Positions 1,971 through 20,089 of a DNA stretch of 64,000 bases are shown one piece after another. The notes beneath the pieces were generated by a model. It saw only the letters and a list, made by a program, of their open reading frames with translations. It did no database searches and had not been told where the DNA came from. A program made the position numbers and the translations under genes. This stretch comes from Bacteroidaceae bacterium (GTDB lineage: Bacteria > Bacteroidota > Bacteroidia > Bacteroidales > Bacteroidaceae): NCBI GenBank assembly GCA_017464345.1, contig JAFUAH010000006.1, positions 1-64,000 on the forward strand, in the 5' to 3' direction. Positions within the stretch are counted from its first letter, which is position 1; every line of letters begins with the position of its first letter.

Positions 1971-1999
1971 AAATAACAACAAACAAAATACAAAATATT

Positions 2000-2638
2000 A
2001 TGGACACATTTGATAAAATTGAAGCCATGCTCGCAGAATTACTCGAGCAAGCAAACGACCAGAAAAAGAATTCTGGCAAGTTGAGTAGTAAACTTGATGG
2101 TATTGACAGCAGATTGAGTGATCTTGAAGCCGTCAGTGCCAGTCCGCAAGTTCCAGAGAGTGTTATCACCTTGGCTGACCACGACAAAAAGATGGGTGAA
2201 GTTCAAGGTCAGTTACAGAAATGGTATGGTCGCTACGAGAATTACAAGCAGTTGTACAAAAAGCTTCAAGCTGAACAACCTTATTGGGCTACTAAAGAAT
2301 GGCCCATCAAGGCTTTCCGTTGGATTCATGACAAGCGTCACTATTGGATTTGGATTATCTACCTCCTGTTCACCTTGATTCTCTCGCTGTCAATCTGTAA
2401 TTCTGTTTTTCAGCGAAGGAAAATCATTGAACTTCAGGATACGCAGATGAAATATCGTTTCATCAAGGCAATAGGTGCAGCACCTAAAGAAGTGCAATTC
2501 CTTGAAGATGCATACGAACGGCATTGGGTGGATAGACTAGACTTCATTGAGGGTACAGTCTCAGACTATGAAAAAGCCTTGAAGCACAAGGCAGATAGCA
2601 TAGCCAGAGCAGAGCGCAAGAAGTTGGAGCGGTTTTAA
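2000..2638 (+). CDS. Coiled-coil membrane protein of the mobilization module
   Basis: A 212-residue protein. The N-terminal third is helical and charged, likely coiled coil (about residues 1-95). A single membrane span follows at about residues 115-135 (rich in W, I, L, Y, ending 'SLSICNSVFQRRK'), then a charged C-terminal helix. There is no signal peptide, so a cytoplasmic N-terminus with one span is likely. Its place between the relaxase (29 nt away) and parA suggests a role in docking the relaxosome at the membrane or in element maintenance, but no family is recognised. The terminal codons form half of a stem-loop whose loop holds the stop codon. Confidence 0.6.
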   Translation: MDTFDKIEAMLAELLEQANDQKKNSGKLSSKLDGIDSRLSDLEAVSASPQVPESVITLADHDKKMGEVQGQLQKWYGRYENYKQLYKKLQAEQPYWATKEWPIKAFRWIHDKRHYWIWIIYLLFTLILSLSICNSVFQRRKIIELQDTQMKYRFIKAIGAAPKEVQFLEDAYERHWVDRLDFIEGTVSDYEKALKHKADSIARAERKKLERF

Positions 2639-2655
2639 ACGCCGCTCCACTTTCT
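2625..2655 (+). terminator. Stem-loop over the stop codon of the mobilization membrane protein
   Basis: An 8-bp stem (2625-2632 with 2642-2649) closes a 9-nt loop that contains the TAA stop codon, followed by a pyrimidine tract (ctttctc). It separates the mobilization genes from parA and would act as a terminator or 3'-end stabiliser. Confidence 0.5.
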
Positions 2656-2702
2656 CAGAATAGTAAACTAACATTTATGATTTATAACAAAATAGTAAAG
2701 TA

Positions 2703-3374
2703 ATGAAATCTAAGAAGAATAAAATCATTGTTTTCGCCAATCAGAAGGGCGGAGTGGGCAAATCTACACTCTGCATCCTTCTGGCTGACTATCTAGCGTA
2801 TTGGAAGAAAGATGTCTGTATCATTGACACCGACCTCCAACAGTCCGCTACCTTGCAACGTGAGCAGGATAAGCAGACCTTTGGGGAAGAAGAACCATAC
2901 AGCATTCAATCGTTTGAGGTCAGTGATCCCAAGACGATGCAGATGCTGATGGAGAATGCAGAGTCGCAGGATGGCTTTGTGCTATTCGATGCACCTGGCA
3001 CCATCAAGGATGACGGGCTGGCCCCGATGTTCATCTATGCTGATTATATCATCTGCCCATTTGAGTATGAATCGAAGTCGTTATCCTCAACCCGAACTTT
3101 TATTCAGGTCATCAACCGCCTTCGCCAACTCAATCCGCAGATGAAGGCCCAAATCTTCTTCGTTCCTAACAAGGTTGATGCCAGAATGGGAACACGTGAA
3201 GAGTTGGAATTATGGAAACAAACGGATGTAGAGTTTGCACAAAGTGGAATCGTTTCCCCGCCTGTTGGCTATCGGGCACAGATGAAACGAGTTAATACCT
3301 ACATTGTTCCACTTCCGTTGAAACATGCTGTCTATGAGAGTTTTCGATTTGTCGTAAAATCTATTTTGCGATAA
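2703..3374 (+). CDS. parA: ParA-family partition ATPase
   Basis: A 223-residue ParA/MinD-type ATPase. The deviant Walker A motif KGGVGKST spans K15-T22, with the signature lysine at K15. Switch I/Walker A' contains 'IDTDLQQSA' and Walker B is 'FVLFDAPGT'. The protein is short and has no DNA-binding N-terminal extension, as in the ParA genes common in Bacteroides conjugative and mobilizable elements (TraA-like). These are thought to help element maintenance or position the transfer machinery. A 105-residue partner follows after 30 nt, probably playing the accessory role usually held by a small ParB-like or DUF3408-type protein. Confidence 0.85.
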   Translation: MKSKKNKIIVFANQKGGVGKSTLCILLADYLAYWKKDVCIIDTDLQQSATLQREQDKQTFGEEEPYSIQSFEVSDPKTMQMLMENAESQDGFVLFDAPGTIKDDGLAPMFIYADYIICPFEYESKSLSSTRTFIQVINRLRQLNPQMKAQIFFVPNKVDARMGTREELELWKQTDVEFAQSGIVSPPVGYRAQMKRVNTYIVPLPLKHAVYESFRFVVKSILR

Positions 3375-3855: not shown

Positions 3856-3886
3856 TTTGTTAATATGGAATATTTTTGTATCTTTG
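3856..3886 (+). promoter_or_regulatory. Bacteroidetes-type promoter of the ietAS pair
   Basis: TTTG at 3856-3859 (-33), a 19-nt spacer and TATCTTTG at 3879-3886 (-7). This matches the Bacteroidetes sigma-ABfr consensus and would start transcription near 3893. An in-frame ATG at 3857 lies inside the promoter, so the ATG at 3914 is the start of the ATPase gene. Confidence 0.8.
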
Positions 3887-3913
3887 CAGAAAAATTTAAG
3901 AACAATAAGAAAA

Positions 3914-5098
3914 ATGAATAGCATTTTTGGAATTATTTTAGCGCTATGTAGAGCTAGCCTTTCTAATGATATTGACAATGTGAAATATCAAATAGAAAGA
4001 TTGGCAAATGCATACAAAAAAAATGGGACGGAAGCAGAATACAAAGCAATATCGTCTTTATTGAAGAATACGGCAAAGAAACAGGTCCTAAATGGAAGTA
4101 AATTAAAAATTTCCAATTCTATAATTGTGGGAGAGGAATTAACACGTCAAGTCACTATCCCTGTCGATAAAGAGACTGCAAGTCCTCTATTGGAAATATT
4201 CTTTTCAAATGATTTACCATCGGAACCGCCGATATTTGATGTCCCGATACAAACAGCAGTAGAATCTGTAATTGTGGAATGGTCGAATTATCCCAAACTT
4301 GTTGCTATGAATGCAGCTCCCTCGCATTCTTGTCTCATATATGGTCTACCAGGAACAGGTAAAACCCATTTGGCTAAATGGATGGCAAACCAAATAGGAC
4401 TGCCCGTAGTTCTTGCAAGATTAGATGGAATTGTGTCTTCTTTCCTTGGCACAAGTGCGAGAAACATAAGTTCACTGTTTTCATTTGCAAATAGATATAA
4501 GTGTGTCTTGTTACTAGATGAGTTTGATGCTATCGCAAAACTAAGGGATGATCCACAAGAAGTGGGTGAGGTGAAACGTATAGTGAATGCATTATTGCAG
4601 AATTTAGATGAAAGAGATAATTGTGGATTTACTATTGGAGTTACAAATCACGAACAATTGCTTGATCCTGCAATTTGGAGACGATTTGATGTTCAGATAG
4701 AAATTCCAAAACCGTCATCTATGGTTATTGAAAAACTTCTAACATATTATATGACTCCACTTCAGCTTTCGGAAGCGGAAATAAGATTCATGTCTTGGTG
4801 CTCATCAGGTTCTTCTGGGGCAGATATACAAAAGTTGTCAAATTGGCTAAAAAGGATGAAAATCATTACAGAATACCAAAATGATAATATTGTAGATTTG
4901 ATGCGTAGATATTCTATTCTAAATACGGGTAGAATGTCTGATGAAATAAAAAAAATACTTTCGTTATCAGATGACGACATATTGACAAAATTAAAAGGAG
5001 AAGAATTGAATTTTAAACAAAAAGACATTGCTGCAATATTTAATATTTCACAATCGACGGTAAGTAAACAATTAGCAAAAGTAAATAAGGAGGAATAA
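3914..5098 (+). CDS. ietA: IetA-like AAA ATPase of a protease-ATPase defence pair
   Basis: A 394-residue AAA-family ATPase. An N-terminal helical region (about 1-110) is followed by the AAA core: Walker A GLPGTGKT at 144-151, Walker B LLLDEFD with D202/E203, and a sensor/arginine-finger region ('PAIWRRFDVQIEIP'). The last 40 residues form a predicted helix-turn-helix ('FKQKDIAAIFNISQSTVSKQ'), unusual for this family. The next gene, one base downstream, is a subtilisin-like protease. This ATPase-plus-S8-protease pair matches IetAS, first described as a plasmid-stability module of Agrobacterium Ti plasmids and later reported as anti-phage. The ATPase probably remodels or delivers targets to the protease. 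The HTH may let it bind its own promoter (inference). Confidence 0.75.
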   Translation: MNSIFGIILALCRASLSNDIDNVKYQIERLANAYKKNGTEAEYKAISSLLKNTAKKQVLNGSKLKISNSIIVGEELTRQVTIPVDKETASPLLEIFFSNDLPSEPPIFDVPIQTAVESVIVEWSNYPKLVAMNAAPSHSCLIYGLPGTGKTHLAKWMANQIGLPVVLARLDGIVSSFLGTSARNISSLFSFANRYKCVLLLDEFDAIAKLRDDPQEVGEVKRIVNALLQNLDERDNCGFTIGVTNHEQLLDPAIWRRFDVQIEIPKPSSMVIEKLLTYYMTPLQLSEAEIRFMSWCSSGSSGADIQKLSNWLKRMKIITEYQNDNIVDLMRRYSILNTGRMSDEIKKILSLSDDDILTKLKGEELNFKQKDIAAIFNISQSTVSKQLAKVNKEE

Positions 5099-5099
5099 T

Positions 5100-7553
5100 A
5101 TGGCAAATGGTCCTATTCAAGTCGTACTAAACAGCGATCAGTATTTAGACGACGTAAAGCCAAAAAAAGGCGGAAGTAGAAAAGATTTTTATGAAGGCAA
5201 AGATTCTTTGTTCGTAAAGCACAAGAATGAGCTTTTAAATCAATTAACGCGCATGAGTTCCTTGTCATCGGTGAAAGGGAAAATAAGCTATGCCAAAGTC
5301 AAACTTATTAAAGAAGCTTTGGCAAAAAGTCATCGTCCTATAATGCAAATTTTCACTGAAGATAATGAATGTCAGGTAGTTGGTGGAAGGAGATTTGGGG
5401 AAATGATAGTAGAATTAGGACCATCGGCTGTAGACAAAATTATTCGCAAAATTGAATATGGCGCGGAAGAAACAGTTATTCCAAGAAAGAACCGTAAAGG
5501 AGATACTGTTACTACTGCTTCCGTATGTCGTTGCGAAGTTGGTGTAATAGACACAATCCAAGAATATGGCAGTAACGATAAACTTGATTTGGATATAGAT
5601 AAGTTTGCTGATATGATGACATTGTTTGGAAACGGCATGTATGTTGAGTTCTTTGACATTCCAAGTTCCAGGCAATACTGGGATATTGTTGCTCCTGAGC
5701 GTTTGAAATTGTATAATGATCTGATCAAGTCTCTTCAAAGTATTCCAGGAATCTTGTTAAGAAAATCAAATATTAGCGCTCTTGGAAAACTGATGCATAT
5801 TCAAATAACAGATCATCATATTCCTATAGTTAATTTCAATTCATCAGAAATTGGCTATGATAACAAAATAAGAAATGCGACAAAAGATAAGACGAAGTAT
5901 CTTCACGCATTAAATATTATTTCGAACAATGCACTCGTAAAAAGTATCTCATTAGTACCAATGATTGGAGTCGCTCCTCCTATAAAAACATCTGATGTAA
6001 AAGATAGGCAATATTCAATTCCTGTTCCAAATAATCTTGATAAGTATCCTATTGTAGGAGTGGTTGATTCTGGCATATCACATTTGTTTGACAATTGGAT
6101 TGTTGAAAGATGGGAACCTGTTTTGCCTGGTAGACGGGATAATAATCATGCAACTTTTATTTCAGGACTTTTAGTCAATGGTAATGACTATAATGAAAAA
6201 ATCATAGAAAAGAATGGCTGTAGACTTGTTGATTTTTGTCTTATGCCAAAGGAATCGGAGTTTAGTACCCAATATCCGAATGGGCTTGATGATGTGATTT
6301 CAGAATTGCGTGCGGGGCTTTCCGTACTTGTACATTCAACGAATGTTAGAATTATAAATTTAAGTTTGAATGTTTATACGTTTAGAACACCTGATATGTA
6401 TAGTCACTTTGCCGTAGAATTGGACAAAATTGCCGAGGAACTAAATATTATCTTTGTTATATCAGCAGGAAATTTGGGGGTAATAAATGGAATCCAATGC
6501 AGAAACAAGTGGTCAACAGATTCACAGGCAAATGTTAATGAACTGATTCTTAGAAAGGATGATACTATTTATTCTCCAGCAGAAAGTTTGCGAAATATCA
6601 GTGTCGCAGCTTTAAATATTTCAGATGAGGGGCTTGCCTCGTATAGTTGTAGAGGCAAAGGAACTAACATCGCTATAAAGCCCGATGTTGTTTGCTTTGG
6701 AGGAGATAATTCTCAATTTGATACAGGTATGGTTTCCTTGAATACACAAGGGGAGATTGTTTCTGGATGTGGAACAAGTTTTGCAGCTCCTTTGGTTGCT
6801 AAAACATTGGCAACCATAGACAATATGATAGACGGGAATGTGTCGAGAGAAACATTATTGGCATTATTGATTCATAGTTGTTATGTTCCATCCACATTTA
6901 AGGCAAAGGAGTATCAATCAATCTTGAAAGATGTTATTGGATATGGTTTACCAAAAGATGCGTCTCAAATTTTAAATGGAGATAGTCATTCAATTAGTTT
7001 GGTTTTTGCAAACAGAATTATGCCCAAGAAGCATCTGGAATTCCATTTTTCATGGCCAAAATGCTTAATTCGAAATGGAAAATGTTATGGAAATATCAAA
7101 ATCACATTAGTGAGTACACCGCAGATCAATTGGAATTATAAAGATGAAATGATAAGGGAAAATATAAGCGTTTCTTTTGGGCAAATCATGCCTGACAATA
7201 GCCACAAGAATCAAGTAACCCCTCTTTACAAAACTCAAGTAAAGAAAGAAACAGATCATCTATATGAATGGCAATTAATCGAGGAAAACATGAAATGGAG
7301 TCCAATAAAAGTATATGAACGAAATATTCATACTGGTATTAGCGGGCCTACAAACTGGTATCTGGATGTAAACTATCTTTCTCGTGAGAGTGTTATGCCA
7401 CTAAATACAGGATTGCCATTTACAATCATAATGACAATATCCGACCCAGAAGGTACGGCACCTGTTTATGACGAAATGCGTTTTATCGTTAGCAGTACGG
7501 GAGCTCAGATTTCTGATATTCAGACAGCAGCTCGTATCACACAAAGGATTTGA
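5100..7553 (+). CDS. ietS: IetS-like subtilisin-family (S8) serine protease
   Basis: An 817-residue protein with no signal peptide, so it is probably cytoplasmic. The N-terminal 310 residues are a family-specific region. The S8 catalytic domain follows: Asp in 'VGVVDSGIS' (D323), His in 'NNHATFISG' (H350), the oxyanion 'ISAGN', and Ser in 'GTSFAAPLVA' (S560). A C-terminal beta-rich region of about 180 residues follows. All three catalytic residues are intact. The start lies one base after the ATPase stop, so the two are translationally coupled. In IetAS pairs the protease is thought to be the effector, held or aimed by the ATPase. Very AT-rich codon use sets the pair apart from the core chromosome. 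Confidence 0.8.
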   Translation: MANGPIQVVLNSDQYLDDVKPKKGGSRKDFYEGKDSLFVKHKNELLNQLTRMSSLSSVKGKISYAKVKLIKEALAKSHRPIMQIFTEDNECQVVGGRRFGEMIVELGPSAVDKIIRKIEYGAEETVIPRKNRKGDTVTTASVCRCEVGVIDTIQEYGSNDKLDLDIDKFADMMTLFGNGMYVEFFDIPSSRQYWDIVAPERLKLYNDLIKSLQSIPGILLRKSNISALGKLMHIQITDHHIPIVNFNSSEIGYDNKIRNATKDKTKYLHALNIISNNALVKSISLVPMIGVAPPIKTSDVKDRQYSIPVPNNLDKYPIVGVVDSGISHLFDNWIVERWEPVLPGRRDNNHATFISGLLVNGNDYNEKIIEKNGCRLVDFCLMPKESEFSTQYPNGLDDVISELRAGLSVLVHSTNVRIINLSLNVYTFRTPDMYSHFAVELDKIAEELNIIFVISAGNLGVINGIQCRNKWSTDSQANVNELILRKDDTIYSPAESLRNISVAALNISDEGLASYSCRGKGTNIAIKPDVVCFGGDNSQFDTGMVSLNTQGEIVSGCGTSFAAPLVAKTLATIDNMIDGNVSRETLLALLIHSCYVPSTFKAKEYQSILKDVIGYGLPKDASQILNGDSHSISLVFANRIMPKKHLEFHFSWPKCLIRNGKCYGNIKITLVSTPQINWNYKDEMIRENISVSFGQIMPDNSHKNQVTPLYKTQVKKETDHLYEWQLIEENMKWSPIKVYERNIHTGISGPTNWYLDVNYLSRESVMPLNTGLPFTIIMTISDPEGTAPVYDEMRFIVSSTGAQISDIQTAARITQRI

Positions 7554-8126: not shown

Positions 8127-10682
8127 ATGTTTAAAGTAATATGGGATCCAGCATATAATGGTGTTCGACTGACAATGTCTAGTAAAGGTGATGCGCTTAA
8201 TGTGTCACCACGACCTGTATTCTGGGAAGAACTTGATTTGTTGGGATTGAATAAACGTGGGTGGATATATCCCCACGTAGAAGAACCTTTGATGTGGGCT
8301 TGTGACCGCAGATATTTCTATAAGGGGCAGTTTGTACTTGAAGTGAAAGGCGGCAATGTATTTGATGCGCCTGAGGTTATTCAGCAAGAAGGTTATGAAA
8401 TCCTGACGTTACAACCAGTTGATATGGAACGTTTGCGTTCTCGCAATGAGGACACAATGTTTATTATCGAACACGAAGCAATGGATTTCATCAACCAAAC
8501 ATATCGTCGATATAAGAATATCCGCGAGGTCTCGCAAAAGAATCCAGATTTAGATTTCCAACGCCTTGCATCCTCTCTTGAAAAGAAAACAAAAGAAGAG
8601 CATGTGGTGATTAAGGAAGATTGCGATAGTTTCGATGTAATGCCACTAAGTAAGGCTGAAGAACAAGGAAAGGCTCCTATACTATCAAGCAATACGGACA
8701 TCTTTGTAACTTCTTTTAGTGGTGGAAAAGATTCTCAAGTTGTTCTTGACTTAGTAACAAGAGTTGTCCCTGCTGAAGATGTTGTTGTCATTTATTCCGA
8801 TACTGGGTATGAATTGCCGTCATCTTTAAGCTTGTACGACGAAGTTAAGGATTTTTACAAACAGAAATATCCGAACCTGAGATTCTATACTGCTAAGAAC
8901 CATCAACCAGTCTTACATTATTGGGATGAAATTGGTACACCAAGCAGAATTCACAGATGGTGTTGTAGTATTATGAAATCTGCCCCATTAAGTAAATTAC
9001 TTAAGGATATAGTTGGCAATGGAAAACAGCCCAATGCTATCTTGTTTGATGGTGTTCGTGCAGAGGAAAGTCCTAGCCGCTCATCGCGTTCGAGAATTGG
9101 GAAAAACGTAAAGCATAACAAGATTATCAATGTTAGCCCTATTCTTGAATGGAATGCGACAGAGATATATCTATATCTATTACTCAATGGGCTTCCTGTC
9201 AATGAGGCATATAGAAAAGGACTTTCACGAGTCGGTTGTGTAATATGCCCCTATTCCTCCAGCTGGAGCGAGGATTTATGTGGTCAATTATATCCAGAGA
9301 CACTTGCTCCATTCGTAAATAAGATTCGAGAAGGACTTGAAAGGAGCAAAACGGCAGGAATAGAGAATTACATCCGTACAGGAAGATGGAAAATGAGGGC
9401 AGGTGGTCGATACTTACACACAAATGCAAATGTTAATTTCATGAGTGTTGCGCCTGATTTTAAAGCTATTATAACTGCGCCTAAAGAAAACTTGTTAATG
9501 TGGATGAGGGTTTTAGGTGACATGAACATACATCAAGATGGCAATATTACTGATATTGACCTTAAACATCAAAAACAAATATACAAGTGCCGATTAGAAG
9601 AAAAAAGCAATAGTCAGGTTTTGGAAGTCTGCGGAATAGACCCAAAAGATATTGTATTTGTTAGCCATCTCAAGAAAGTCTGCTATAAGGCGACTTATTG
9701 TGTTCATTGTGAAGTGTGTGAAGTTGAATGCCCAACTGGTGCATTGTCTGTAGTGCCAAGAGCCACTATCAATAAAGAAAAATGCGTGCATTGTCTGAAA
9801 TGCATTGATTTCGATGGTAAGGGATGTCATGCTGCGAGCTCAATAAGTACATCTGACACAAGCATAATGACAAACCAGATTAAGAATGTGGCTCAAGGTT
9901 CAAAGTCAGGCATTAACCGATATAATGACGGTATGGGTATGCGTGAAAAGTGGGTGGAAAAATATTTTGACACATACGAATCGTTCTTCGACAATAATGA
10001 ACATGGTCTAAATCCCAAATATCAAATACCTCCATTCATTAATTGGCTTCGTGAGGGTTATATCCTTAATGCTGAGGACAAGAATATTAGTGAAGTAGGA
10101 CAATATATGGCTAAAGCCTATAGAACAAAAGCGCTGACAGTTTGGGAGTTGATTTATATCGGTCTATGTGATAATAGTGAAATCTGTTCCTGGTTCCATA
10201 GTGCCATTGATTTTAATCGTAGTTATACTCGTGAAGAAATGGATATTATTTTGCAGGACTCATACCCTGATCTTAAGGACAGAACCCTGCGAAATCCATT
10301 TAATTCGTTATTAAACACATTCAAAGAAAGTCCATTAGGAACTTCCATTCCTGTCGGCGTATTAGGCAAAGAGCAGAACAAAGTCACTTTGATACGCCAA
10401 CCTCATAACAATATTTCACTCGAAGGTTTAGCATATTCACTATATCGATATGCTGAACGTAAAAAGCGTTACTCCCTTAATGTGTCAGAATTCTATGATG
10501 AGAATCAGACTGAAGGAATATACCGCCAATTTGGAATCAGTAAAGAAACACTGGAGAGTCTGCTCCTTTCCTTACAAGAGGAGAGCAATCATGTACTGCG
10601 AGTAGAGTTGAACATGGGTCTTGACAATATTATACTACGAGAGGATTTAACCTCCGTTGATATACTGAAGCTGATGCTCTAA
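8127..10682 (+). CDS. brxP: BrxP: PAPS-reductase/DndC-like protein of type 4 BREX
   Basis: An 851-residue multidomain protein. After an N-terminal region of about 190 residues comes a PAPS-reductase/ATP-pyrophosphatase domain with the PP-loop SGGKDS (S198-S203). DndC-like cysteines follow ('HRWCCSIMKS', 'GCVICPY'), expected to hold an Fe-S cluster. A ferredoxin-like region carries C525/C528/C531/C535 and C553/C556/C559/C567. The C-terminal 230 residues resemble DUF4007, a domain seen with DNA-phosphorothioation genes. BrxP defines type 4 BREX, which has no PglX methylase. By analogy with DndC it may activate DNA and help transfer sulfur to the backbone (inference). It heads an operon with brxC, 32 nt downstream. 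The leader is unusually long and structured. Confidence 0.85.
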   Translation: MFKVIWDPAYNGVRLTMSSKGDALNVSPRPVFWEELDLLGLNKRGWIYPHVEEPLMWACDRRYFYKGQFVLEVKGGNVFDAPEVIQQEGYEILTLQPVDMERLRSRNEDTMFIIEHEAMDFINQTYRRYKNIREVSQKNPDLDFQRLASSLEKKTKEEHVVIKEDCDSFDVMPLSKAEEQGKAPILSSNTDIFVTSFSGGKDSQVVLDLVTRVVPAEDVVVIYSDTGYELPSSLSLYDEVKDFYKQKYPNLRFYTAKNHQPVLHYWDEIGTPSRIHRWCCSIMKSAPLSKLLKDIVGNGKQPNAILFDGVRAEESPSRSSRSRIGKNVKHNKIINVSPILEWNATEIYLYLLLNGLPVNEAYRKGLSRVGCVICPYSSSWSEDLCGQLYPETLAPFVNKIREGLERSKTAGIENYIRTGRWKMRAGGRYLHTNANVNFMSVAPDFKAIITAPKENLLMWMRVLGDMNIHQDGNITDIDLKHQKQIYKCRLEEKSNSQVLEVCGIDPKDIVFVSHLKKVCYKATYCVHCEVCEVECPTGALSVVPRATINKEKCVHCLKCIDFDGKGCHAASSISTSDTSIMTNQIKNVAQGSKSGINRYNDGMGMREKWVEKYFDTYESFFDNNEHGLNPKYQIPPFINWLREGYILNAEDKNISEVGQYMAKAYRTKALTVWELIYIGLCDNSEICSWFHSAIDFNRSYTREEMDIILQDSYPDLKDRTLRNPFNSLLNTFKESPLGTSIPVGVLGKEQNKVTLIRQPHNNISLEGLAYSLYRYAERKKRYSLNVSEFYDENQTEGIYRQFGISKETLESLLLSLQEESNHVLRVELNMGLDNIILREDLTSVDILKLML

Positions 10683-10714
10683 TTTAAATAAGAAAATCTA
10701 AAAAATCAAATAAT

Positions 10715-13700
10715 ATGGCTACTAAATATTCAGACTATATCAAAATGCAGGACTTCCTGCCAGTCTATGATATGACAGATGAAACGCCAGAAATGTGGCG
10801 AACCTTCATTCCCACCAAACAATTCTGCGATTTGTTAAGCAGAAGTGTAACGGCAATTACATCCTCAGAAATAAGTAAACGTCGTTCTATGTGGGTTCGT
10901 GGTACGTTTGGCACAGGTAAAAGTCACGCCAGTAGTGTAGTTCGCCATCTTTTATGCGACCCTGCAACAGAAGTAGATGACTATATCCAAAATCTACCAA
11001 ACGAATCGTTGCGAGCGAATTTAGCAGCCATACGCAAGAAAAAGACTTATTTCCCAGTGGTGTTAAAAGGTGTCGAAGGAGCTTACAATATACCACGCTT
11101 CTCTTTGTCAATACAGAAGCAGACGAAGTTAGCGTTGGCAGCAGCAGGTCATAAAGAGATTGTAGTGCATTCAGACTTCGACAAAGCTATCCGCTGGATT
11201 GAAGGCCATAAAGCTCGTATTCCTGAGTTGTTAGAATTGAGTGATGAATTGGCATCTGAAGCACCATCATACGAAAAACTATTGGCTAAGCTTCAGGTAA
11301 ATGACATAGACGTTTTCCTTCATTTAGAGGAAGTCCTGGCTGCTGATGATACATATTTGACTAGCGACAGTATTAGCGATTGGCTTGTAGAAATTGAAAA
11401 AGAGATTGAGACAGCCGGTATCGCTAACGGTTTGATTATATTTTGGGACGAGTTCACAAGTGTGATGGACACGTTGAAGAGTGATCGCATTAATGTGTTG
11501 CAAAATATCGCAGAAAAGTCACAGAACAACAATGTTTTCCTTTATTTGATTTCCCATAGGACTGAAAGTTCCAGTCTTGACACAAAAGGTAAGGACATTA
11601 CGAAAATGAGTGACCGTTATGATAGCGTCGACTATCAAATGGACGAAATATCCACGTATCTCATTTTGCGTCACACGTTTACCATACCCAGCAAAACAAA
11701 GCTGGCTATGATGGCATTGAGTGTTGCAGGCAAATTGGATGGTCATATTTATGATTACCTCTGTGAGAGCGGTTCACCAGAAGAGATGGAGCATATCCAC
11801 AACTTGTTCCCGCTGCATCCATATACCGCATTCCTTTGTTCTAAGATGTCGAACATCATGGGGTCTGCTAATCGTAGTGTCCTAAAGTTCATGAACGACG
11901 AACAAAATGGTTTCAAAGGATTCATTGGTGACGAAAACAACTACGAACAGAAGATGATGCTAACGGCTGACTGGTTGTGGGATTTCTTCTATTCTGAGTT
12001 TAATAACGATGCACGTTGTTCCGCATTTACCAATGTCTATATGAGCAATCTGGCTCGTGTGGAGAAAATGGGCGACGATTATGTACGCGTGTTTAAAGCC
12101 ATACTCCTCTTAAATGCTCTTGGAGTGCGATTCGACAAAAAGCAATCACCAGAGAAGTATGCTCCAAATGAGAGAAATCTTATTTTTATCTTTTCAGGAG
12201 ACCGTTGTGATGATAAGATGGAAAAAATCCTCAATTGGTTGGATGAAAGTAAGATAGTGGCACGCGATATCTTTGGAGAATTCAAGATATCAGTTTCATC
12301 TTATAACCCAGTTGAAATAAATCAGGAAAAGGCGAAAGTTGCTACACAATACAAAATGGCGGTAGACTACCTGAAATACAATGGTCGTAGTATGGCAGAG
12401 ATTGGCGTTAACTTCTTGGTAGGTGATCGCCTGTTCCGCAAATGCGAACCTCAGTTCTACTCATGTGAAGACCAAGAAGCAATTCTACGTAGTAAGTTGA
12501 ACAAATACACACGCGAGAAGCCCAATTTCCTTCATGTATGTGTTTTCTACTCTGTTACTGACGAGTCAAGAGATATGATGGAAAACAGAGTAAAGGATTT
12601 CTCTGAAGAATTTGAAAACACTATATTCATCATCCCTTCAGAAGTATTCACGACGAATGCCCAAAATCATTTTATCGATGCTGTTACTCAAGCGAACGTA
12701 AGCCGTTCCCACTTTAACACAGACGATGCCAGCCAGTTTGAGAATGCTGCAAAAGAATACATTGCTAAGTGGAAAACTCGAATGATGAACGGCACGTACA
12801 CGTTATACTTTAATGGCAAACGTAGTTCTGAAGGCATATTTAACAACATCTATAGCATTATCAATAAGAAATTCAGCGCCCAGGTATTCCCACGCGGCAT
12901 GGAAAGTGTAAAGGCTTTGCAGAATGAACCTGTTACCTTCTTTGCCAATAAGAATTACAAGGCCCTTTCTTTGCAAATGCTCCAAAAACGCACACGCGAC
13001 GAGCTGTTGAATTTTGGAGGGTCTAGCAGACCTGCTAAGAAAATATTCTTAGATGGCGAAAATAACCTTGTTAATGATGCTTGTGAATTAACTGATGCAG
13101 CATTGGCTGGAGATTCTTGGCTTGTTGCTATTTGCAAAGAGGTTGATAGCTTGATTTCGGCTGCTAAGAAACGATATGCAGATCGCTTCTCATTGAGCGA
13201 CATATTAGAACCTCTAATTCGTGAACCATTTGGCCTGTTTGCAAATCAAGCAAACTATGTTGCACTTTCGTTTGCACTACGAAAGCATAAAGAAGACTTG
13301 TTCAATCCCAGTACATCACAGCCTGTTGGCGACGAGAAACTGAATGATATGATTGAGATTCTTCTCAAGATGTGGGATAATGGCAGCAGCGAGTCCTGTA
13401 ACAAATTGCTTCTTCGTTTTGGCTCAGCTGAAGAGCGCAATCTTACAAGCATTCTTGGGGAGATTTTCAATTTGAGCGTTGTGAAGGGTGTTAGCCTAAG
13501 TGACCTCAAGAGTCTGAACTATGCAAAATGGAGCATCACGGAGTTTTGCAAGCAGATAGCCAAATATCCGTTGTGGTCTTTGCTTTATTGCAGCAAAATT
13601 GAGGAGAAAAAGGCATGTGCTGAAGCCATCAAGGATTTGATTATACTCTTTAATCAGGATAGTTATTCACTTGATAAGATCAAATCTCTATATCACGAGA

Positions 13701-14137
13701 TAAAAGAGGTGGGTCAGGTTGATTTATACAAGTTATGTACCAATTCTGCCAATTATCAGGAAGGCTTTAAGAATTTCATCAACAACATTAAAGATGTTGA
13801 ACTTCAACCAGAATGGTGGGAGGAGCTTGAAGAAGAGCTTGGACATTTACAATCTGAGATTGCTTTCCGTAGAGAAGAAGATGTACGTTCTGCTGTAATG
13901 TCTTTCTATATTAATAAGATTAAGAAACCTGAACCAATGCCCATACCTGGGGGAATGGCAGCAGAACCAGCCCCAATACCTACTCCTGTACAAACAAAGC
14001 CTGACGATATTAAAATGGCAAAAACATTAGTGCGTGAACAAACCATGCCAAGCATGATGTGGCAAAAGGTTATACTTGATTTGATAGAGGAACATCCAGA
14101 AGTTTCTCAATTCCTGATATCATATCTTGGAAGCTAA
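10715..14137 (+). CDS. brxC: BrxC/PglY-like large ATPase of type 4 BREX
   Basis: A 1140-residue P-loop ATPase matching the BrxC/PglY family. The Walker A motif GTFGTGKS begins at residue 63, within the family's typical opening region ('TFIPTKQFCDLL...'). A Walker B-like 'GLIIFWDEFTSVMD' lies near residue 245. The rest is long, helical and low in recognisable motifs. A Pro-rich linker ('PMPIPGGMAAEPAPIPTP') precedes a C-terminal helix of about 50 residues. BrxC is needed for BREX defence and forms ATP-dependent DNA-associated complexes with other Brx proteins. The gene is 32 nt after brxP and 12 nt before pglZ, clearly one operon. Length agrees with family members of 1,100-1,250 residues. Confidence 0.85.
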   Translation: MATKYSDYIKMQDFLPVYDMTDETPEMWRTFIPTKQFCDLLSRSVTAITSSEISKRRSMWVRGTFGTGKSHASSVVRHLLCDPATEVDDYIQNLPNESLRANLAAIRKKKTYFPVVLKGVEGAYNIPRFSLSIQKQTKLALAAAGHKEIVVHSDFDKAIRWIEGHKARIPELLELSDELASEAPSYEKLLAKLQVNDIDVFLHLEEVLAADDTYLTSDSISDWLVEIEKEIETAGIANGLIIFWDEFTSVMDTLKSDRINVLQNIAEKSQNNNVFLYLISHRTESSSLDTKGKDITKMSDRYDSVDYQMDEISTYLILRHTFTIPSKTKLAMMALSVAGKLDGHIYDYLCESGSPEEMEHIHNLFPLHPYTAFLCSKMSNIMGSANRSVLKFMNDEQNGFKGFIGDENNYEQKMMLTADWLWDFFYSEFNNDARCSAFTNVYMSNLARVEKMGDDYVRVFKAILLLNALGVRFDKKQSPEKYAPNERNLIFIFSGDRCDDKMEKILNWLDESKIVARDIFGEFKISVSSYNPVEINQEKAKVATQYKMAVDYLKYNGRSMAEIGVNFLVGDRLFRKCEPQFYSCEDQEAILRSKLNKYTREKPNFLHVCVFYSVTDESRDMMENRVKDFSEEFENTIFIIPSEVFTTNAQNHFIDAVTQANVSRSHFNTDDASQFENAAKEYIAKWKTRMMNGTYTLYFNGKRSSEGIFNNIYSIINKKFSAQVFPRGMESVKALQNEPVTFFANKNYKALSLQMLQKRTRDELLNFGGSSRPAKKIFLDGENNLVNDACELTDAALAGDSWLVAICKEVDSLISAAKKRYADRFSLSDILEPLIREPFGLFANQANYVALSFALRKHKEDLFNPSTSQPVGDEKLNDMIEILLKMWDNGSSESCNKLLLRFGSAEERNLTSILGEIFNLSVVKGVSLSDLKSLNYAKWSITEFCKQIAKYPLWSLLYCSKIEEKKACAEAIKDLIILFNQDSYSLDKIKSLYHEIKEVGQVDLYKLCTNSANYQEGFKNFINNIKDVELQPEWWEELEEELGHLQSEIAFRREEDVRSAVMSFYINKIKKPEPMPIPGGMAAEPAPIPTPVQTKPDDIKMAKTLVREQTMPSMMWQKVILDLIEEHPEVSQFLISYLGS

Positions 14138-14149
14138 AATCGAAGAGTC

Positions 14150-16594
14150 ATGGATTCTGCAGAGAAAATAACCGTTTTTAAGTCCTTTGAGGATTTGACT
14201 CGTGAAATTATCCGTGATAAGGATAATGGCGATATGTTGGCACAACGATATGCCATACGTTTTATCATGCTCAATAACTTTAATGAGTTTAAAAACTTGG
14301 CGAAGTTTATGGCAAACATCGGGGTTGAAGCATTGGATTTGGAAACACTTATAGATGATGGCGAAGATGACACTTGGATAACTAAGGACACCTTGAAAGC
14401 AGCTATGAAGGAATGCAAGGACTCAACCTTTGTATCCCCTTTCTCTGAACTTGTACGCTTTTATAACGATGATGATTTTCGCGGGTTCTTCAATGAGATT
14501 ATGCTGCTTGAAGACATACATCATCCAAAGAAACGCATCTATGTACCGCTTATTGGGCTACAGAATCGTTTTACTGATTTCTTAAATCATTTTGCACGTA
14601 TTCAGGAAAGTGCACCTATTTGGCGATATGATGCAGAACCCCAATCGGTAGAGGTTTTCTTTGCTAAATACAAAGACTTTAAGTTGCCGAGTGGTGAAAT
14701 ACAATGTCAATTGGATTCATTGAGAGATTGGTTAAAGTTCTGGAAGGTGCAAGCCCCACAGGAACGTATCGTTTGCACCTCTATCCCTATCTCAGCAAAA
14801 TACAAGTACTCAAAACCTGACAATATCTTCAATTTTACCAAGATAGGAAGTGCATACGAATTTATGACTCAGTTCTTGGAACTTTCATTTCCATTTGAAT
14901 ACGTTGAGGAAGAGAGAGAATATTGGGATCAATTGATGGATAGTATCGATAGAAAAGATACATCATCATTTGCTTTTGAGTCGTATGTTCGTGCTTATTT
15001 TAATAAAGTTTCGCTTACGGCTTCTGATGTCATCTCAGAATGGTTAAACTCCAATAGCACAGCCTATCATCGCTGGCTTTTGAAAAAATTGGTTTTGCAT
15101 ACTCAATTCAGGGATTCATATCCTTATTTGGCAATGTGCGTGGATGGAATATCTGATTTGTATGACGGGCATCAGTTGGCTTCGTTTATCGCGACGAGAA
15201 TTCTTTATGACCTTCCGATAAAAGACAGAGAAACTTATGCCGCTGAACGAAGAACGATTATCGTTGATAATGCCAAGACCTTCTTGGAGGCAATAAGCCT
15301 TGATGAGCAAAATTGGCTATTTGAAAGGACAAAGGAATTGTTCCAACAAACGGAAGACTTAAATGTGGCCTTGAATGTCTGCACAGGTGTTTTCGACTAC
15401 GAAAAGATACTCCTTATGGGTTGGTATGCACACTATCCAAACAATTCAAGGCTAAGAGAAACTATAAGGATATTCTATCCTGATTTCCTTGCTTACATCA
15501 CATCAGTGAAACCTTCGCATTTCAGATCAGAGAATCAATGGAGTATAGACTATATTGCTGCATATAAACAGGCAAAGCTGGCAGACAAATATACAGAAGA
15601 CATCGTTCGTTTTATTAAAGAAAAGAACGATTCTGCCAAAACGTTCTATAAGTGGTATTACGAGTTTGAAAATTCCCATAGCCTTTTAGCAGAAGTTAGT
15701 TCGACTCCTGTTTATGAGCCCGATAAAGTTTATTGGATAGATGGGTTAGGAGCTGAGTTCCTGTCTTATTTGTTATACCTGTTAGAAAAGGAGCAGAGCA
15801 ACATGAAAGTAGTTCGTTCGCAAATTTTACGTTCTGACATACCATCATCTACCTTCCATAACAGGTTTGAAGGCGAAACGGTAACCAAGTTTGGCGCATT
15901 GGATGAATTGGGTCACGATTCCCATCTTTACAAATATTTGTATACGCTGAAAGAGGAATTATCCGTACTTAAAGAGATTATTCATGAGATTGTTGGAAGC
16001 AGCAAGAAACTGCCTTGTACTGTAGCCATCGTTTCAGATCACGGCCTAAGTTGTTTGTCGAGAAAGGCACCATCTAAAAAGTATGATGGTAAATTTGAGC
16101 ATGAAGGACGCTACATTAAAACAACTCAGGATGCATTATCAGACCCAGATTATTTAGTTCACCAAAACGAGACGGATGGAGAATACTATAAAGTAGCCCT
16201 TACGCATTCTTCTTTGTCCAAGGCACCTATTCATCAAGTTCATGGGGGATGTACACCTGAAGAAGTGTTGGTTCCTTTCATCCTGATCTCCAACAAAAAT
16301 GTGCCTACTCAAATTAAGTATGAGGTTAAGATGTCAAATGAGGATATTATGCTCTCTAACCCAGCAGTCAGGCTGACTGTTATTCCTGAACCAACAGGAG
16401 TCACTCTTACATGTGAAGGAAAGAATTACAAGATGGATCGTGTCGGTACTCAATGGTCTGTTCTGTTGCAAGATATGACAGAAGGAAACCATGTAATAGA
16501 CATCAAACCCGATGGCGCACCAAGTCATCAATTTACTATTAAGGTTGTAGGCTTGAGTGGAAATTCAGATATTAACGAAATGTTTGAACTATAA
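14150..16594 (+). CDS. pglZ: PglZ alkaline-phosphatase-superfamily protein of BREX
   Basis: An 814-residue PglZ-family protein, the second universal BREX component. The alkaline-phosphatase-fold metal site is visible in its C-terminal half: 'VYWIDGLGAEFLSYLL' (Asp), 'AIVSDHGLSCLSRK' (Asp-His) and a late His-Gly motif ('PIHQVHGGCTPEEVLVPF'). The N-terminal 500 residues are helical. A beta-rich tail of about 90 residues with an Ig-like look follows the catalytic domain ('VRLTVIPEPTGVTLTCEGKNY'). PglZ proteins are thought to be phosphatases or nucleases working with BrxC; the substrate is not settled. Spacing of 12 nt from brxC and 2 nt to brxL shows a tight operon. Confidence 0.85.
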   Translation: MDSAEKITVFKSFEDLTREIIRDKDNGDMLAQRYAIRFIMLNNFNEFKNLAKFMANIGVEALDLETLIDDGEDDTWITKDTLKAAMKECKDSTFVSPFSELVRFYNDDDFRGFFNEIMLLEDIHHPKKRIYVPLIGLQNRFTDFLNHFARIQESAPIWRYDAEPQSVEVFFAKYKDFKLPSGEIQCQLDSLRDWLKFWKVQAPQERIVCTSIPISAKYKYSKPDNIFNFTKIGSAYEFMTQFLELSFPFEYVEEEREYWDQLMDSIDRKDTSSFAFESYVRAYFNKVSLTASDVISEWLNSNSTAYHRWLLKKLVLHTQFRDSYPYLAMCVDGISDLYDGHQLASFIATRILYDLPIKDRETYAAERRTIIVDNAKTFLEAISLDEQNWLFERTKELFQQTEDLNVALNVCTGVFDYEKILLMGWYAHYPNNSRLRETIRIFYPDFLAYITSVKPSHFRSENQWSIDYIAAYKQAKLADKYTEDIVRFIKEKNDSAKTFYKWYYEFENSHSLLAEVSSTPVYEPDKVYWIDGLGAEFLSYLLYLLEKEQSNMKVVRSQILRSDIPSSTFHNRFEGETVTKFGALDELGHDSHLYKYLYTLKEELSVLKEIIHEIVGSSKKLPCTVAIVSDHGLSCLSRKAPSKKYDGKFEHEGRYIKTTQDALSDPDYLVHQNETDGEYYKVALTHSSLSKAPIHQVHGGCTPEEVLVPFILISNKNVPTQIKYEVKMSNEDIMLSNPAVRLTVIPEPTGVTLTCEGKNYKMDRVGTQWSVLLQDMTEGNHVIDIKPDGAPSHQFTIKVVGLSGNSDINEMFEL

Positions 16595-16596
16595 AT

Positions 16597-18033
16597 ATGA
16601 GTGCAATAGGAGAAAAAATAAGGCAAGTCTTTGGTTCTGCCGCCGTGTATAAGAACCCTGCCAATTATGACATATTTAGTGGAAGGAATCTTCCCTCGTT
16701 TGTAAAAGACTATCTGATATCAACACATATCGCACCAGATGGCTCCTTTAAACGTGCTGAACTGGCAAGATTCTTAGATGCTCATATACCAAGTGATAAT
16801 AGTGCTATTAGGGCCAGATTGCGTAGAGGTGAGACACTAACGCTGCTGACCCGCTTCGTGGTATCCACCAGTCTTGCTCAGAATAAGACCAGTTTCCAGA
16901 TACCCGATATGGGTATTAAGGCATCAGATACGCTGATACCTGACTACCTTATTGAAGAATATCCTGATGACTTGATTGACGGTGAGAAATGGGGTATCAT
17001 GAAGATTGTCTATATCCAACCTCAAGAGCGTGAGGCAGGACACGTAGAAATGGTGAAATTTAAGCCATTCCGTCCCATGCAGAAACTTGACATCAATTAT
17101 ATCAGACAATGCCGTGCTCAGTTTACATTAGAGGAATGGGTGGATGTCTTAATCTCTGCAATGGAATATACTCCTTCTGCATTTAAGAATATGACGCAAA
17201 AGCTGGAGTTTCTAACTCGACTGTTGCCTTTTATTGAGCCTCGTTTGAATTTAATAGAACTGGCACCAAAGGGAACTGGTAAAAGCTATGTTTTCGGCAA
17301 TTTGTCAAAGTTCGTCTGGCTTGTAAGTGGTGGAAAGGTTTCTCGTGCCAAACTGGTATACGACAAATCAACCAAGGCTCCTGGTATTATGCGCTTTTAC
17401 GATATGGTAGCTTTTGATGAGATTCAGACCATCACGTTTTCTGACAATACAGAGATGCAATCGTTTTTGAAGAACTACCTGGAATTTGGCAAAGCTACTA
17501 TTGATAATTACGAATTTATGTCTGAGTGCGGTTTGATGCTTTTGGGCAATATACTATTGTCAGAAAATAACGAGCCTTTGAGTTATAAGTATTTTTCTGC
17601 TCTTCCTGAAGTTTTCAGAGAGTCAGCCTTGCTTGATCGTTTCCATGGTATGATTGAGGGTTGGCTATTGCCACGAGTAAACGTAGACATGGCTCTACAT
17701 GACTGGACTCTGAATGTTGAGTTTTTCTCAGAGGTACTACACCAGATGCGTACAGAGTCTGTTTATTCACATATCGTTGATGAAGCAATTGAAGTTCCTA
17801 ATGGAGCTGATATGAGACATACGAAAGCGGTAAAGAAAGTCGCCACAGCATATATGAAATTGCTGTTTCCCCATGTAACATCCATAGAACAGTTAGATTG
17901 GGATGATTTTAATGCACTCTGTTTACAACCAGCAATACGTCGCCGCGATATAGTACGCCAACAATGTAGTAACATAGATGCAGAAGCATCGTTCTCGAAG
18001 CCCATGCCTGCATATACAATAAAACAACATTGA
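16597..18033 (+). CDS. brxL: BrxL-like AAA ATPase, without the Lon-type protease domain
   Basis: A 478-residue BrxL-family protein. A helical DNA-binding-like N-terminus (about 1-90) is followed by an AAA+ core with Walker A GTGKS at 226-230 and a Walker B 'MVAFDEIQT' about 45 residues later. Full BrxL proteins are about 680 residues, with a Lon-like Ser-Lys protease domain after the ATPase. Here the protein stops at residue 478 and no such domain follows in this frame or in the next genes. BrxL forms hexameric rings on DNA and is needed for phage restriction in other BREX types. The stop is 3 nt before the next start, so the accessory genes downstream are coupled to it. The short form may be normal for type 4 BREX. 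Confidence 0.8.
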   Translation: MSAIGEKIRQVFGSAAVYKNPANYDIFSGRNLPSFVKDYLISTHIAPDGSFKRAELARFLDAHIPSDNSAIRARLRRGETLTLLTRFVVSTSLAQNKTSFQIPDMGIKASDTLIPDYLIEEYPDDLIDGEKWGIMKIVYIQPQEREAGHVEMVKFKPFRPMQKLDINYIRQCRAQFTLEEWVDVLISAMEYTPSAFKNMTQKLEFLTRLLPFIEPRLNLIELAPKGTGKSYVFGNLSKFVWLVSGGKVSRAKLVYDKSTKAPGIMRFYDMVAFDEIQTITFSDNTEMQSFLKNYLEFGKATIDNYEFMSECGLMLLGNILLSENNEPLSYKYFSALPEVFRESALLDRFHGMIEGWLLPRVNVDMALHDWTLNVEFFSEVLHQMRTESVYSHIVDEAIEVPNGADMRHTKAVKKVATAYMKLLFPHVTSIEQLDWDDFNALCLQPAIRRRDIVRQQCSNIDAEASFSKPMPAYTIKQH

Positions 18034-18036
18034 ACT

Positions 18037-18645
18037 ATGACGACGAAGGAAGAACTCGAACTGGTATTGCAAATTATGAAAAAATATGATTTGCCTATGA
18101 GTCCTATCCTTGAATATGCCATCAAGGAGAAAATAGACGGTAATGTGTCATCTACTATTCCAGTAAATAGTACACCAGTCATAGAACCTGTCAATAACAA
18201 TACCAACGCTTCGTATGTAGAGTTATTTAGAAATTTGTCTACAGGAGTTCAAAATGGGGTAAAACTGCCTCATAAAGCAGTCTTGTTATTAAGCATTCTC
18301 ACCTTGGTTGATAACGGAGCAATAACAGATAATAAGATTCTTTTGGATAAAACTATTGCAAATGCTTTCGCAAACACATGGGGAGACTATCTACATAACA
18401 CTAAGATACCTTCTGTATGGATTCCTTTTTGGTATATGAAGAGTGAACCTTTTTGGCATTTCAAAGCGTTAGCAGATGAGAATATCTTGCAAAATCTCTT
18501 GTGCTTTGCTGGTCATCCGTCTGTTGGTCAGATGCGTAATGTAATAAAATACGCTTATGTCGATGAACAACAGTTTTCTCTTATACAAGATAGAGAAGAA
18601 AGCTCAAAATTGAAAAAGGCTCTAATAGAGACCTATTTAAGATAA
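18037..18645 (+). CDS. Candidate DNA-sulfur-binding (SBD-like) accessory protein of the BREX operon
   Basis: A 202-residue protein in two parts. Residues 1-33 are a helical segment shared with the next gene (21 of 33 identical, including 'SPILEYAIKEK'). After a Ser/Thr/Asn-rich linker, residues about 60-200 match the pattern of the DNA phosphorothioate-binding domain of ScoMcrA-like type IV enzymes: 'LPHKAVLLLSILTLVDNG', then 'TDNKILLD', an aromatic 'WIPFWYMKSEPFWHF' and a C-terminal helix. No HNH nuclease follows, so this would be a stand-alone reader. It starts 3 nt after brxL and ends 10 nt before the next gene. Beside a sulfur-chemistry BrxP, a reader of phosphorothioate DNA is the favoured role (inference from pattern, not a search). 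Confidence 0.6.
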   Translation: MTTKEELELVLQIMKKYDLPMSPILEYAIKEKIDGNVSSTIPVNSTPVIEPVNNNTNASYVELFRNLSTGVQNGVKLPHKAVLLLSILTLVDNGAITDNKILLDKTIANAFANTWGDYLHNTKIPSVWIPFWYMKSEPFWHFKALADENILQNLLCFAGHPSVGQMRNVIKYAYVDEQQFSLIQDREESSKLKKALIETYLR

Positions 18646-18655
18646 CTGAGAGAGT

Positions 18656-20089
18656 ATGAAAGAGAGAGAAGAACTTGCACTAATACTGAATCTCATTAGG
18701 AAATATAATCTTCCGCTGAGTCCTATCCTTGAATATGCCATCAAGGAGAAGATGGAGGAGTTCCCTGTAGAAGAGCAACTTACTGCAATTGACAATAACA
18801 AGAAAGCAGAAAATGATTCTGTTGTCAATGAAAAAGTGATAAGTAAAGATTTATCCGTAGAATCCTTGTCAGACGAACTAAGAATTGTCGACTATGGAGA
18901 ACGTACTATTGCCGTAGTAGGCGATACGAAGCCTCACAAGGATGCGCTCAAATCTATAGGAGGTTATTTCGTCTTCCGTACACAATGGGGGCCAGCATGG
19001 GTTTTTCGTGACAAAAAGCGCGATGTCGTACAAGCTTATATAAATGGAGATACTTCTGTTATCACACGTGAGGAAGATGAAAAGCAAGATGAGATACATA
19101 AGAAAAGAGTATCTCGTTATATCATTCGTGTTAAATACCCTGATGGAAGAGTGTTCGACAGTAATCTTGTATGGGAAACGCTGGTGGATGTGATTAAGTA
19201 CGCTGGACCAGAAAAGGTTGAGCAGTTGAATATTTTGTGCATGGGTGACAATCTCGTTTCTTCACGACTCAATGAGAATCCAATATATAGATCTGCTCAA
19301 AAAGAAATAGGACGAGGATTATATGTTTGTACGTATTCGTCAACGGAAATAAAGTACAAACAAATAGTCAGAATCAATTTGGATTGTAGGCTTGGATTAG
19401 AAGTAGAAAAAGTATATATTGATGAAGAGGGTAATTCTCGAACTATACCTTTAGAAGACCTACTATCAAAAAAAGAGGAGATAGGACATAGTATTAAGGA
19501 GAAAAAGCCCTTGAATAAACGTCGTTTGGTGCTTGAAACGGTTAAGAGCTATGTACGTCTTCATCCTCAGGTTTCTTACGAAACCCTAATTCGCGTATTT
19601 CCTGCTTCTTTGAATTACAACCAAGCAAATGGGGTGGTAAAGCGGTATAATGATGTGATGAAAAAATGTTCACTTAACCCTAGGACGCGTAATTATTTCT
19701 TTTTAAAGGATGATGAAATTATTCATTTGTCTAACGGGATGAAAGTTGTTGTTCACAGCCAGTGGGGCGACGACTTTGATAAGTTTCTCAAAGTTGCAAA
19801 GAAACTTTTTAATGTCACTTTATCGGATAATGGTTACATATTAGACACGCCTTTAGTCGTGAATGAAGGTGATAGTGGTACTTCTCAAGCTAAAAAAGAT
19901 ACCGATTTTAAAGAAGACAAAAGGATTGGATATATTGTCAGATTATTCCCGTCTCAACATAAAGGCGAAATTGTGAGAGTTAGAAAAGATTCCAAAGGTA
20001 TGAAGAAACTTGTAGTCAAAACAACAAGTGGAGACACAGTTGAAGTCGATGATTTACCATATTTATATGAGGTATTGAAACGTAAGTGA
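18656..20089 (+). CDS. Multidomain BREX accessory protein sharing the N-terminal segment; function unknown
   Basis: A 477-residue protein with several small modules. Residues 1-33 nearly repeat the N-terminus of the preceding protein. Residues about 75-130 contain a 'GDTKPHKDALKSIGGYF...GPAWVF' unit, a module seen in many Bacteroidetes mobile-element proteins. Residues about 155-270 hold an 'EIGRGLYVCTYSSTEIKYKQ' domain of unknown function. Residues about 285-400 form a winged-helix-like unit ending 'GMKVVVHSQWGDDFDKFL', similar to C-terminal domains of some restriction proteins. The last 50 residues are an SH3/KOW-like strand set. No nuclease, methylase or ATPase motif was found. It sits 10 nt after the SBD-like gene and 9 nt before a lipoprotein gene, so all belong to the BREX transcript. 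Confidence 0.5.
   Translation: MKEREELALILNLIRKYNLPLSPILEYAIKEKMEEFPVEEQLTAIDNNKKAENDSVVNEKVISKDLSVESLSDELRIVDYGERTIAVVGDTKPHKDALKSIGGYFVFRTQWGPAWVFRDKKRDVVQAYINGDTSVITREEDEKQDEIHKKRVSRYIIRVKYPDGRVFDSNLVWETLVDVIKYAGPEKVEQLNILCMGDNLVSSRLNENPIYRSAQKEIGRGLYVCTYSSTEIKYKQIVRINLDCRLGLEVEKVYIDEEGNSRTIPLEDLLSKKEEIGHSIKEKKPLNKRRLVLETVKSYVRLHPQVSYETLIRVFPASLNYNQANGVVKRYNDVMKKCSLNPRTRNYFFLKDDEIIHLSNGMKVVVHSQWGDDFDKFLKVAKKLFNVTLSDNGYILDTPLVVNEGDSGTSQAKKDTDFKEDKRIGYIVRLFPSQHKGEIVRVRKDSKGMKKLVVKTTSGDTVEVDDLPYLYEVLKRK

Follow-up and report, generated by a model that had tools for sequence, protein, structure and literature searches.

Phosphorothioate (PT) writing by type 4 BREX (brxPCZL) is already known and is not new here; it is stated, with citation of Yuan et al., in the parts of PMC11931770 and PMC12839542 on which we draw. 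The second of these proposes, in the part seen, two sensors for the system: in PglZ its iSTAND part, and in BrxP the DUF4007 part, which binds DNA. A stand-alone sulfur-binding domain (SBD) in BREX-4 is not named in the literature searched, and section 34 (type-4 components) and part 1 of section 35 (auxiliary nucleases) of PMC12839542 are silent on one; the priority of the finding described below is uncertain. What section 35 does describe, next to BREX and systems related to it, is nucleases of the wHTH-SAD-HNH type. In these the wHTH is the SBD, and the SBD is a winged-helix fold, according to the portion of PMC10853773 consulted. SBD-HNH endonucleases are of the kind known to cut PT-DNA (PMC6224610). 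In the Ssp system, going by the part of PMC9646914 available, PT recognition recruits, steers and licenses the effector SspE. This protein is both a GTPase and a nicking enzyme, and it reads the mark with a hydrophobic patch in the N-terminal domain. A further comparison is Pbe. The same portion of PMC10853773 takes PbeC to be a CxC-type ABC ATPase and doubts that Pbe acts without cutting DNA; in the excerpt of PMC6459918 used here, the PbeABCD authors speculate on a Pbe protein sensing PT DNA.

The window, meaning the whole stretch of DNA analysed, covers bases 1 to 64,000 of a contig of 191,104 bases, from a host genome that is 61% complete. Like the described brxPCZL systems, it has all four core genes in order (BrxP, BrxC, a PglZ of the BREX-4 type and BrxL) in one operon, 8127-18033, and it differs from them in adding two tagged accessory genes, here called P1 and P2, after brxL (Table 1). 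Both are on the strand of the operon, with the gaps of 3 nt (BrxL to P1) and 10 nt (P1 to P2) that an earlier sequence-only reading had given. BrxP is a PAPS-reductase-type protein with 4Fe-4S and DUF4007-like parts and the presumed PT writer; it carries the sole PAPS_reduct match of the 61%-complete genome (E up to 0.001). At 39524-40666 lies the genome's only Aminotran_5 match (E up to 1e-10). That family includes cysteine desulfurases, and the gene product could be a sulfur supplier. The nearest named BREX-4 records, among the best 80 of 275 BrxP matches, are Prevotellaceae and Bacteroidaceae assemblies, and on that ground we place the host in the Bacteroidales.

Table 1. Coordinates of the features discussed (window positions unless a locus is named).
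Feature	Position	Strand	Remarks
BrxP	8127..10682	+	PADLOC BrxP E 2.1e-248; Pfam PAPS_reduct 4.4e-34, Fer4, sub-threshold DUF4007
BrxC ATPase	10715..14137	+	PADLOC BrxC E 7.7e-137
PglZ, BREX-4 type	14150..16594	+	NCBIfam NF033445 BREX_PglZ_4, 529.9 bits against a cut-off of 140
BrxL	16597..18033	+	Pfam BrxL_ATPase 9.7e-110, BrxL_N 1.4e-23; PADLOC BrxL 6.3e-194
P1, 202 aa	18037..18645	+	N-terminal tag, linker, SBD; AF2 pLDDT 89
Tag of P1, residues 1-35	18037..18141	+	predicted two-helix hairpin, helices 4-16 and 23-33
SBD of P1, residues 57-202	18205..18642	+	
P1 pocket residues H79-K80	18271..18276	+	equivalents of ScoMcrA H116-R117
P1 I129-P130-F131-W132	18421..18432	+	equivalents of ScoMcrA Y164-P165-F166-W167
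P2, 477 aa	18656..20089	+	tag and modules Z, X, W, K
Tag of P2	18656..18760	+	N-terminal segment in common with P1
P2 module Z, residues 68-132	18857..19051	+	also in L063, L064, L065 and the SBD-bearing post-brxL protein of L089
P2 module X, residues 151-251	19106..19408	+	also beside the SBD protein in the DndD/DndH-like operon of L051
P2 module W, residues 288-384	19517..19807	+	also in proteins of other genus and order genomes
P2 module K, residues 413-476	19892..20083	+	also in post-brxL proteins of L064, L065, L115, L134
DndD/PbeC-like operons	L051:8142-15706, L052:2-6035, L055:2050-8881, L062:452-7911		SBD and/or tagged X or V proteins at the end

The sequence-only reading took the body of P1 to be a ScoMcrA-like DNA-sulfur-binding domain without a nuclease, and this is supported: sequence, predicted fold and pocket residues concur on the SBD fold. 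Profile comparison to 8h0l gives E 5.8e-32, and the predicted structure has the sulfur pocket. With the ScoMcrA pocket residues as reference (PMC6224610), P1 has a basic residue, K80, in the position of R117 and P130 in that of P165, along with H79 at H116, F131 at F166, W132 at W167 and W140 at W175. P1 matches no Pfam and no PADLOC family at E up to 1, and no nuclease domain was found in it by the same searches. The model NF045808 is matched by 28 of 34 SBD members at E up to 0.1 (best 3.4e-08), and P1 reaches only 13 bits against its cut-off of 180; HNH and SRA parts are not combined in this one protein. P1 differs from the proteins that carry the SBDs of ScoMcrA, SprMcrA and SBD-Hga in being without an SRA or HNH part, in having an N-terminal tag and in being encoded with a BREX-4 operon.

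In the pocket, Lys occupies the R117 position in all 44 distinct SBD rows, and Pro the P165 position in all 43 rows reaching it. The H116 position is His in five SBDs encoded after brxL (P1 and four others), and in the 29 distinct SBDs encoded next to brxP it is Ala in 28 and Ser in one, so the chemistry of the latter may differ from that of P1. P1 is under purifying selection (NG86 dN/dS ~0.17, window against L063). Its dN of 0.102 at a dS of 0.605 compares with 0.007 and 0.646 for BrxL, and this accessory protein is therefore changing about 14 times faster than BrxL at a like synonymous distance while still constrained, a rate that is unusual for a core subunit. The fast amino-acid change, the Ala or Ser of the brxP-adjacent subfamily and the winged-helix nature of the fold could all be read as signs of an SBD that no longer reads sulfur and now serves in DNA binding or regulation in general. 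We consider that unlikely, given the His retained in P1 and the four other post-brxL SBDs and the pocket Lys and Pro present in every row that reaches them.

The first 33 residues of P1 and P2 are nearly the same, as had been noted from the sequence, with 21 identities; in the DNA, 74 of 99 nt are identical and the longest exact run is 34 nt. The likeness is not chance, because the same segment, which we call the tag, also begins proteins directly downstream of brxL in other BREX-4 loci. In an alignment of 12 tags from BREX-4 loci, M1, E5, P20, S22, P23, I24, L25 and A28 are invariant, and between tag and SBD is a flexible linker of about 20-25 residues. The tag DNA might be a recombination site, in that the 34-nt run would fit gene conversion or recent exchange, but a run of this length does not recur in the pairs of L063 (22 nt) and L064 (13 nt). 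In 139 genomes of the genus, the window's tag occurs in three places, each within BREX-4 loci. In 386 genomes of the order there are three strong matches, all in BREX-4 loci; they come from the window and G231, whose tags had been part of the query alignment. Nine further matches are weak, with E 0.003-0.01, and cover 16-32 of 45 positions. Viral contigs gave six pattern matches and no relative. The earlier suggestion that these genes are tied to type 4 BREX is supported for the tag, which apart from those nine weak partial matches is found only beside BREX-4 in both genome sets. The SBD as a domain is also present in other settings, with 12 of 17 genus matches away from BREX-4.

The post-brxL relatives are modular. 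P2 itself, in line with the several modules first read from its sequence, is tag-Z-X-W-K with separable modules, and others are tag-Z-X-K, tag-Y-X, tag-Y-Z-X-K, tag-X and more. For P2, searches of Pfam, PADLOC, NCBIfam and the PDB sequences gave no match within the limits set (E up to 1 for Pfam and PADLOC); against PDB sequences the best hits are not significant for module X (E 0.29; SeqA 0.4), and the best for module W has E 0.23. There is no match to P2 on plasmids. A single-sequence AF2 model of P2 was unusable (pLDDT 34). The first 262 residues are under purifying selection (NG86 dN/dS about 0.11, window against L063). A second N-terminal segment occurs in the BREX-4 loci L072, L089 and L116, where it is followed by SBD, Z-SBD-X and X-X, respectively. 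At L074:19919-21068, two tagged tandem genes after brxL form a pair without an SBD, one having a V part in common with L062 and the other an X.

To place the window among its relatives, 275 coding stretches were found by a BrxP alignment search and the best 80 retained, so that the counts below describe the nearest 80 of 275. With the window and six further loci added and L088 (split BrxP) removed, a quick tree of 86 BrxP rows divides into clade A, with 40 rows including the window, and clade B, with 46. Some rows are the same or nearly the same (L046/L070, L079/L119, L131/L140, L121/L122, L138/L142 and L069/L086) and hence not independent. Stand-alone SBDs in BREX-4 come as two subfamilies, between brxP and brxC in clade B and after brxL in clade A. 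Among the best 80 of 275 matches, a stand-alone SBD gene is present at 28 of 45 clade-B brxP-brxC junctions; 27 of these genes are intact (139-158 aa) and one, in L103, is broken by a frame change. Going by ORF ends taken mechanically, its distance from brxP is -24 to +18 nt. In the same survey of the best 80 of 275, no SBD follows brxL at any of the 39 usable clade-B ends, a usable end being a full brxL with at least 700 nt beyond it. Clade A, again within the best 80 of 275, is the reverse: no SBD at 36 junctions, and an SBD protein after brxL at 5 of 26 usable ends (window, L063, L064, L072 and L089), with a tagged protein of some kind at 10 of the 26. Of the 45 clade-B junctions in these best 80 of 275, 17 have no detected SBD, and the same is true of 21 among the 26 usable ends of clade A, so that an SBD-type reader is not essential to BREX-4. 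By eye, the brxP-brxC gap of 5 of the 17 SBD-less clade-B loci (L099, L104, L111, L123 and L137) holds no SBD remnants. A broken gene, which we take to be Schlafen/AlbA-like, lies between brxP and brxC at L123:12512-13909, and a presumably Fic-like gene has that place at L076:6577-7308.

The genes after brxL in clade B are varied. In L112, L115:20325-21863, L134:20278-22440 and L141, these proteins share one N-terminus, and the protein of L134 combines Y and K modules with a sigma-70 region 4 part and an RNA polymerase alpha-CTD-like part. Upstream of the window's BREX-4 operon, at 3857-7553, is an IetA/IetS pair (AAA ATPase and subtilase; PADLOC IetA 2.3e-153, IetS 1.4e-242), which is another described defence system, and near the contig start, at 855-3374, are a MobA-type relaxase and a ParA-like ATPase, which suggest that the island arrived on a mobilisable element. 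Such neighbours, and the variety after brxL in clade B, are what one would expect if P1 and P2 were defence-island passengers unconnected to BREX. With the gaps of 3 and 10 nt, purifying selection, the same post-brxL place in several loci and a tag that, weak partial matches apart, was found only there in the genomes searched, we regard passenger status as very improbable.

The placement of the SBD gene in clade B, with brxP and brxC as its immediate neighbours at 28 of 45 junctions in the nearest 80 of 275 and a distance of -24 to +18 nt to brxP, also fits a role on the side of the writer, in which the SBD aids modification, for instance by holding BrxP-BrxC at existing or half-modified PT sites; marks would then be kept through replication or spaced along the DNA. 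However, in the window's own clade, within the same 80 of 275, none of 36 brxP junctions has an SBD gene, which is found instead after brxL, at 5 of 26 usable ends, and BREX-4 loci without any detected SBD are common. We hold a writer-side role to be possible but doubtful.

A tree of 44 SBDs rejects a single clade of BREX-4 SBDs (p-AU 8.7e-08). That test includes the long-branch rows L057, L092 and L100; a restricted set drops all three, and there a grouping of the three SBDs that bear the window's tag with the brxP-adjacent SBDs is rejected as well (p-AU 0.00115). In the restricted set, neither the five post-brxL SBDs (p-AU 0.13) nor the brxP-adjacent SBDs (p-AU 0.15) are rejected as single clades, and so our claim is of at least two recruitments and not three. 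The trees thus point to recruitment of the SBD into BREX-4 at least twice, within the limits of long branches and a short alignment. In the genus, where BrxP was searched alone, an SBD is in the operon at 5 of 7 BrxP loci of the 139 genomes (four at brxP, the window's after brxL), and these account for 5 of the 17 genus SBD matches. Type 1 BREX gave too few cases among the 139 genomes to serve as a control set: its methylase is over cut-off only in G063, on another contig than that genome's SBD, and the one match in the window's genome is below cut-off.

On plasmids, 12 of 14 SBD records lie within annotated HNH endonucleases, the kind known to cut PT-DNA. By that likeness, the SBD might detect PT of another sequence context on incoming DNA and turn BREX on it, which would be type IV-like with a separate effector. 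Encoded with a PT writer, it would endanger the cell's own DNA unless the sequence context differs, and no nuclease domain was found in the post-brxL SBD proteins P1, L072 and L089, while the brxP-adjacent SBD genes barely exceed domain size. A sensor of foreign marks seems improbable to us.

SBD genes also recur in another setting in the genus. A search by the DndD/PbeC-like ABC ATPase alone finds four loci in the 139 genomes. In L051, L055 and L062, the operon encodes an SF2 helicase, a small protein, this ABC ATPase and a HerA/DndH-like ATPase, and an SBD gene closes it. The small protein matches PF20306 with E 8.8e-10 in L055 and sub-threshold (0.0087) in L062. The ATPase of L062 matches PADLOC DndD (6.5e-70) and PbeC (4.4e-63), and scores 195.9 bits with TIGR03185, under the cut-off of 245.85. 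An SBD gene is thus at three of the four loci (not L052), and a tagged X or V protein at three (not L055). In L051, an X protein and the SBD protein share an N-terminal segment with 51% identity and so form another pair like P1 and P2. A single comparison of residues 114-233 of L062, its V part, with a tagged BREX-4 protein of L074 gives a match with E 7e-12. Other SBD genes of the genus are in different settings, three being partial matches. The window's genome, at 61% completeness, has no match to the L062 ABC ATPase at E up to 1e-40. What these operons, akin to Pbe/CxC-DndD-type systems, have in common with the window is that they end in proteins with an SBD, X or V part, and most of these proteins carry similar tags at the N-terminus. 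Their core enzymes are unlike those of BREX-4, and comparison with BrxP found no PT writer there. By hhalign, the window's tag and the DndD-like tag align with a probability of 69% over 19 columns, which is only suggestive of homology; the second BREX-4 tag (L072, L089, L116) reaches 94% over 71 columns, with three sequences on each side. Tentatively, PT defence systems that are built quite differently (BREX-4 and DndD/PbeC-like) may draw on one portable kit, in which a helical N-terminal tag would connect each protein to the core machine and the payload behind it (SBD, X, Y, Z or V), being exchangeable, would read the mark or other DNA features.

We favour, at a probability of roughly 0.55, the reading that P1 is a nuclease-free PT reader subunit of type 4 BREX, docked by its tag and recognising self DNA. 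BREX-4 writes PT marks on host DNA, as the papers in the parts cited above have it. P1 is a candidate for reading them because of its homology and pocket residues, and its SBD would bind PT on self DNA through the K80 and P130 cavity. Docking through the tag is suggested by the predicted helical hairpin, the linker and the restriction to the slot after brxL; the helical tag and flexible linker would anchor P1 to the BREX complex, and P2 would be anchored likewise by the tag it carries. BrxL is the simplest partner, since brxL directly precedes the tagged genes. Occupied PT sites might then tell the PglZ/BrxC/BrxL machinery "self" and hold off action there, a protection proposed by analogy with the way PT reading steers SspE (PMC9646914, in the part seen). 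P1 resembles SspE in that it would be a PT reader beside BrxC/SspC-like and BrxP/SspD-like proteins. It differs in that SspE has GTPase and nicking activities, and searches of P1 and P2 against PADLOC and Pfam, where SspE models are unconfirmed, gave nothing at E up to 1; at 202 aa, P1 has no room for the NTPase and nicking domains of SspE. In loci of the other BrxP clade, this task may fall to the distinct SBD subfamily whose genes lie between brxP and brxC.

For this reader of self DNA we count the SBD identity, the pocket, the recurrence near brxP or brxL, the restriction of the tag, the SspE precedent, the sole PAPS-reductase domain, the Aminotran_5 gene and the SBD at three of four DndD/PbeC-like operons. 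That the SBD was recruited at least twice also argues that reading PT is useful to BREX-4. Against it we count the Ala or Ser at H116, the commonness of SBD-less loci, the 12 of 17 genus SBDs outside BREX-4, the fast change of P1, a genome 61% complete and the other sensors; since PglZ iSTAND and BrxP DUF4007 are proposed in that role (PMC12839542, in the part seen), PT could be read without P1. The write-and-read system envisaged in the sequence-only reading is accordingly borne out in part, in the SBD identity of P1 and in PT writing by BREX-4, the latter known already from the papers in the parts seen.

The BREX-4 literature, as far as the parts seen go, names a PT writer and no PT reader, and P1 is a concrete candidate: 202 aa, an intact pocket, no nuclease and a strict operon position. 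If the idea of a portable kit is true, the reader is a swappable part and not an effector domain. Candidate readers that recur beside related systems make the discrimination of self from foreign DNA directly testable.
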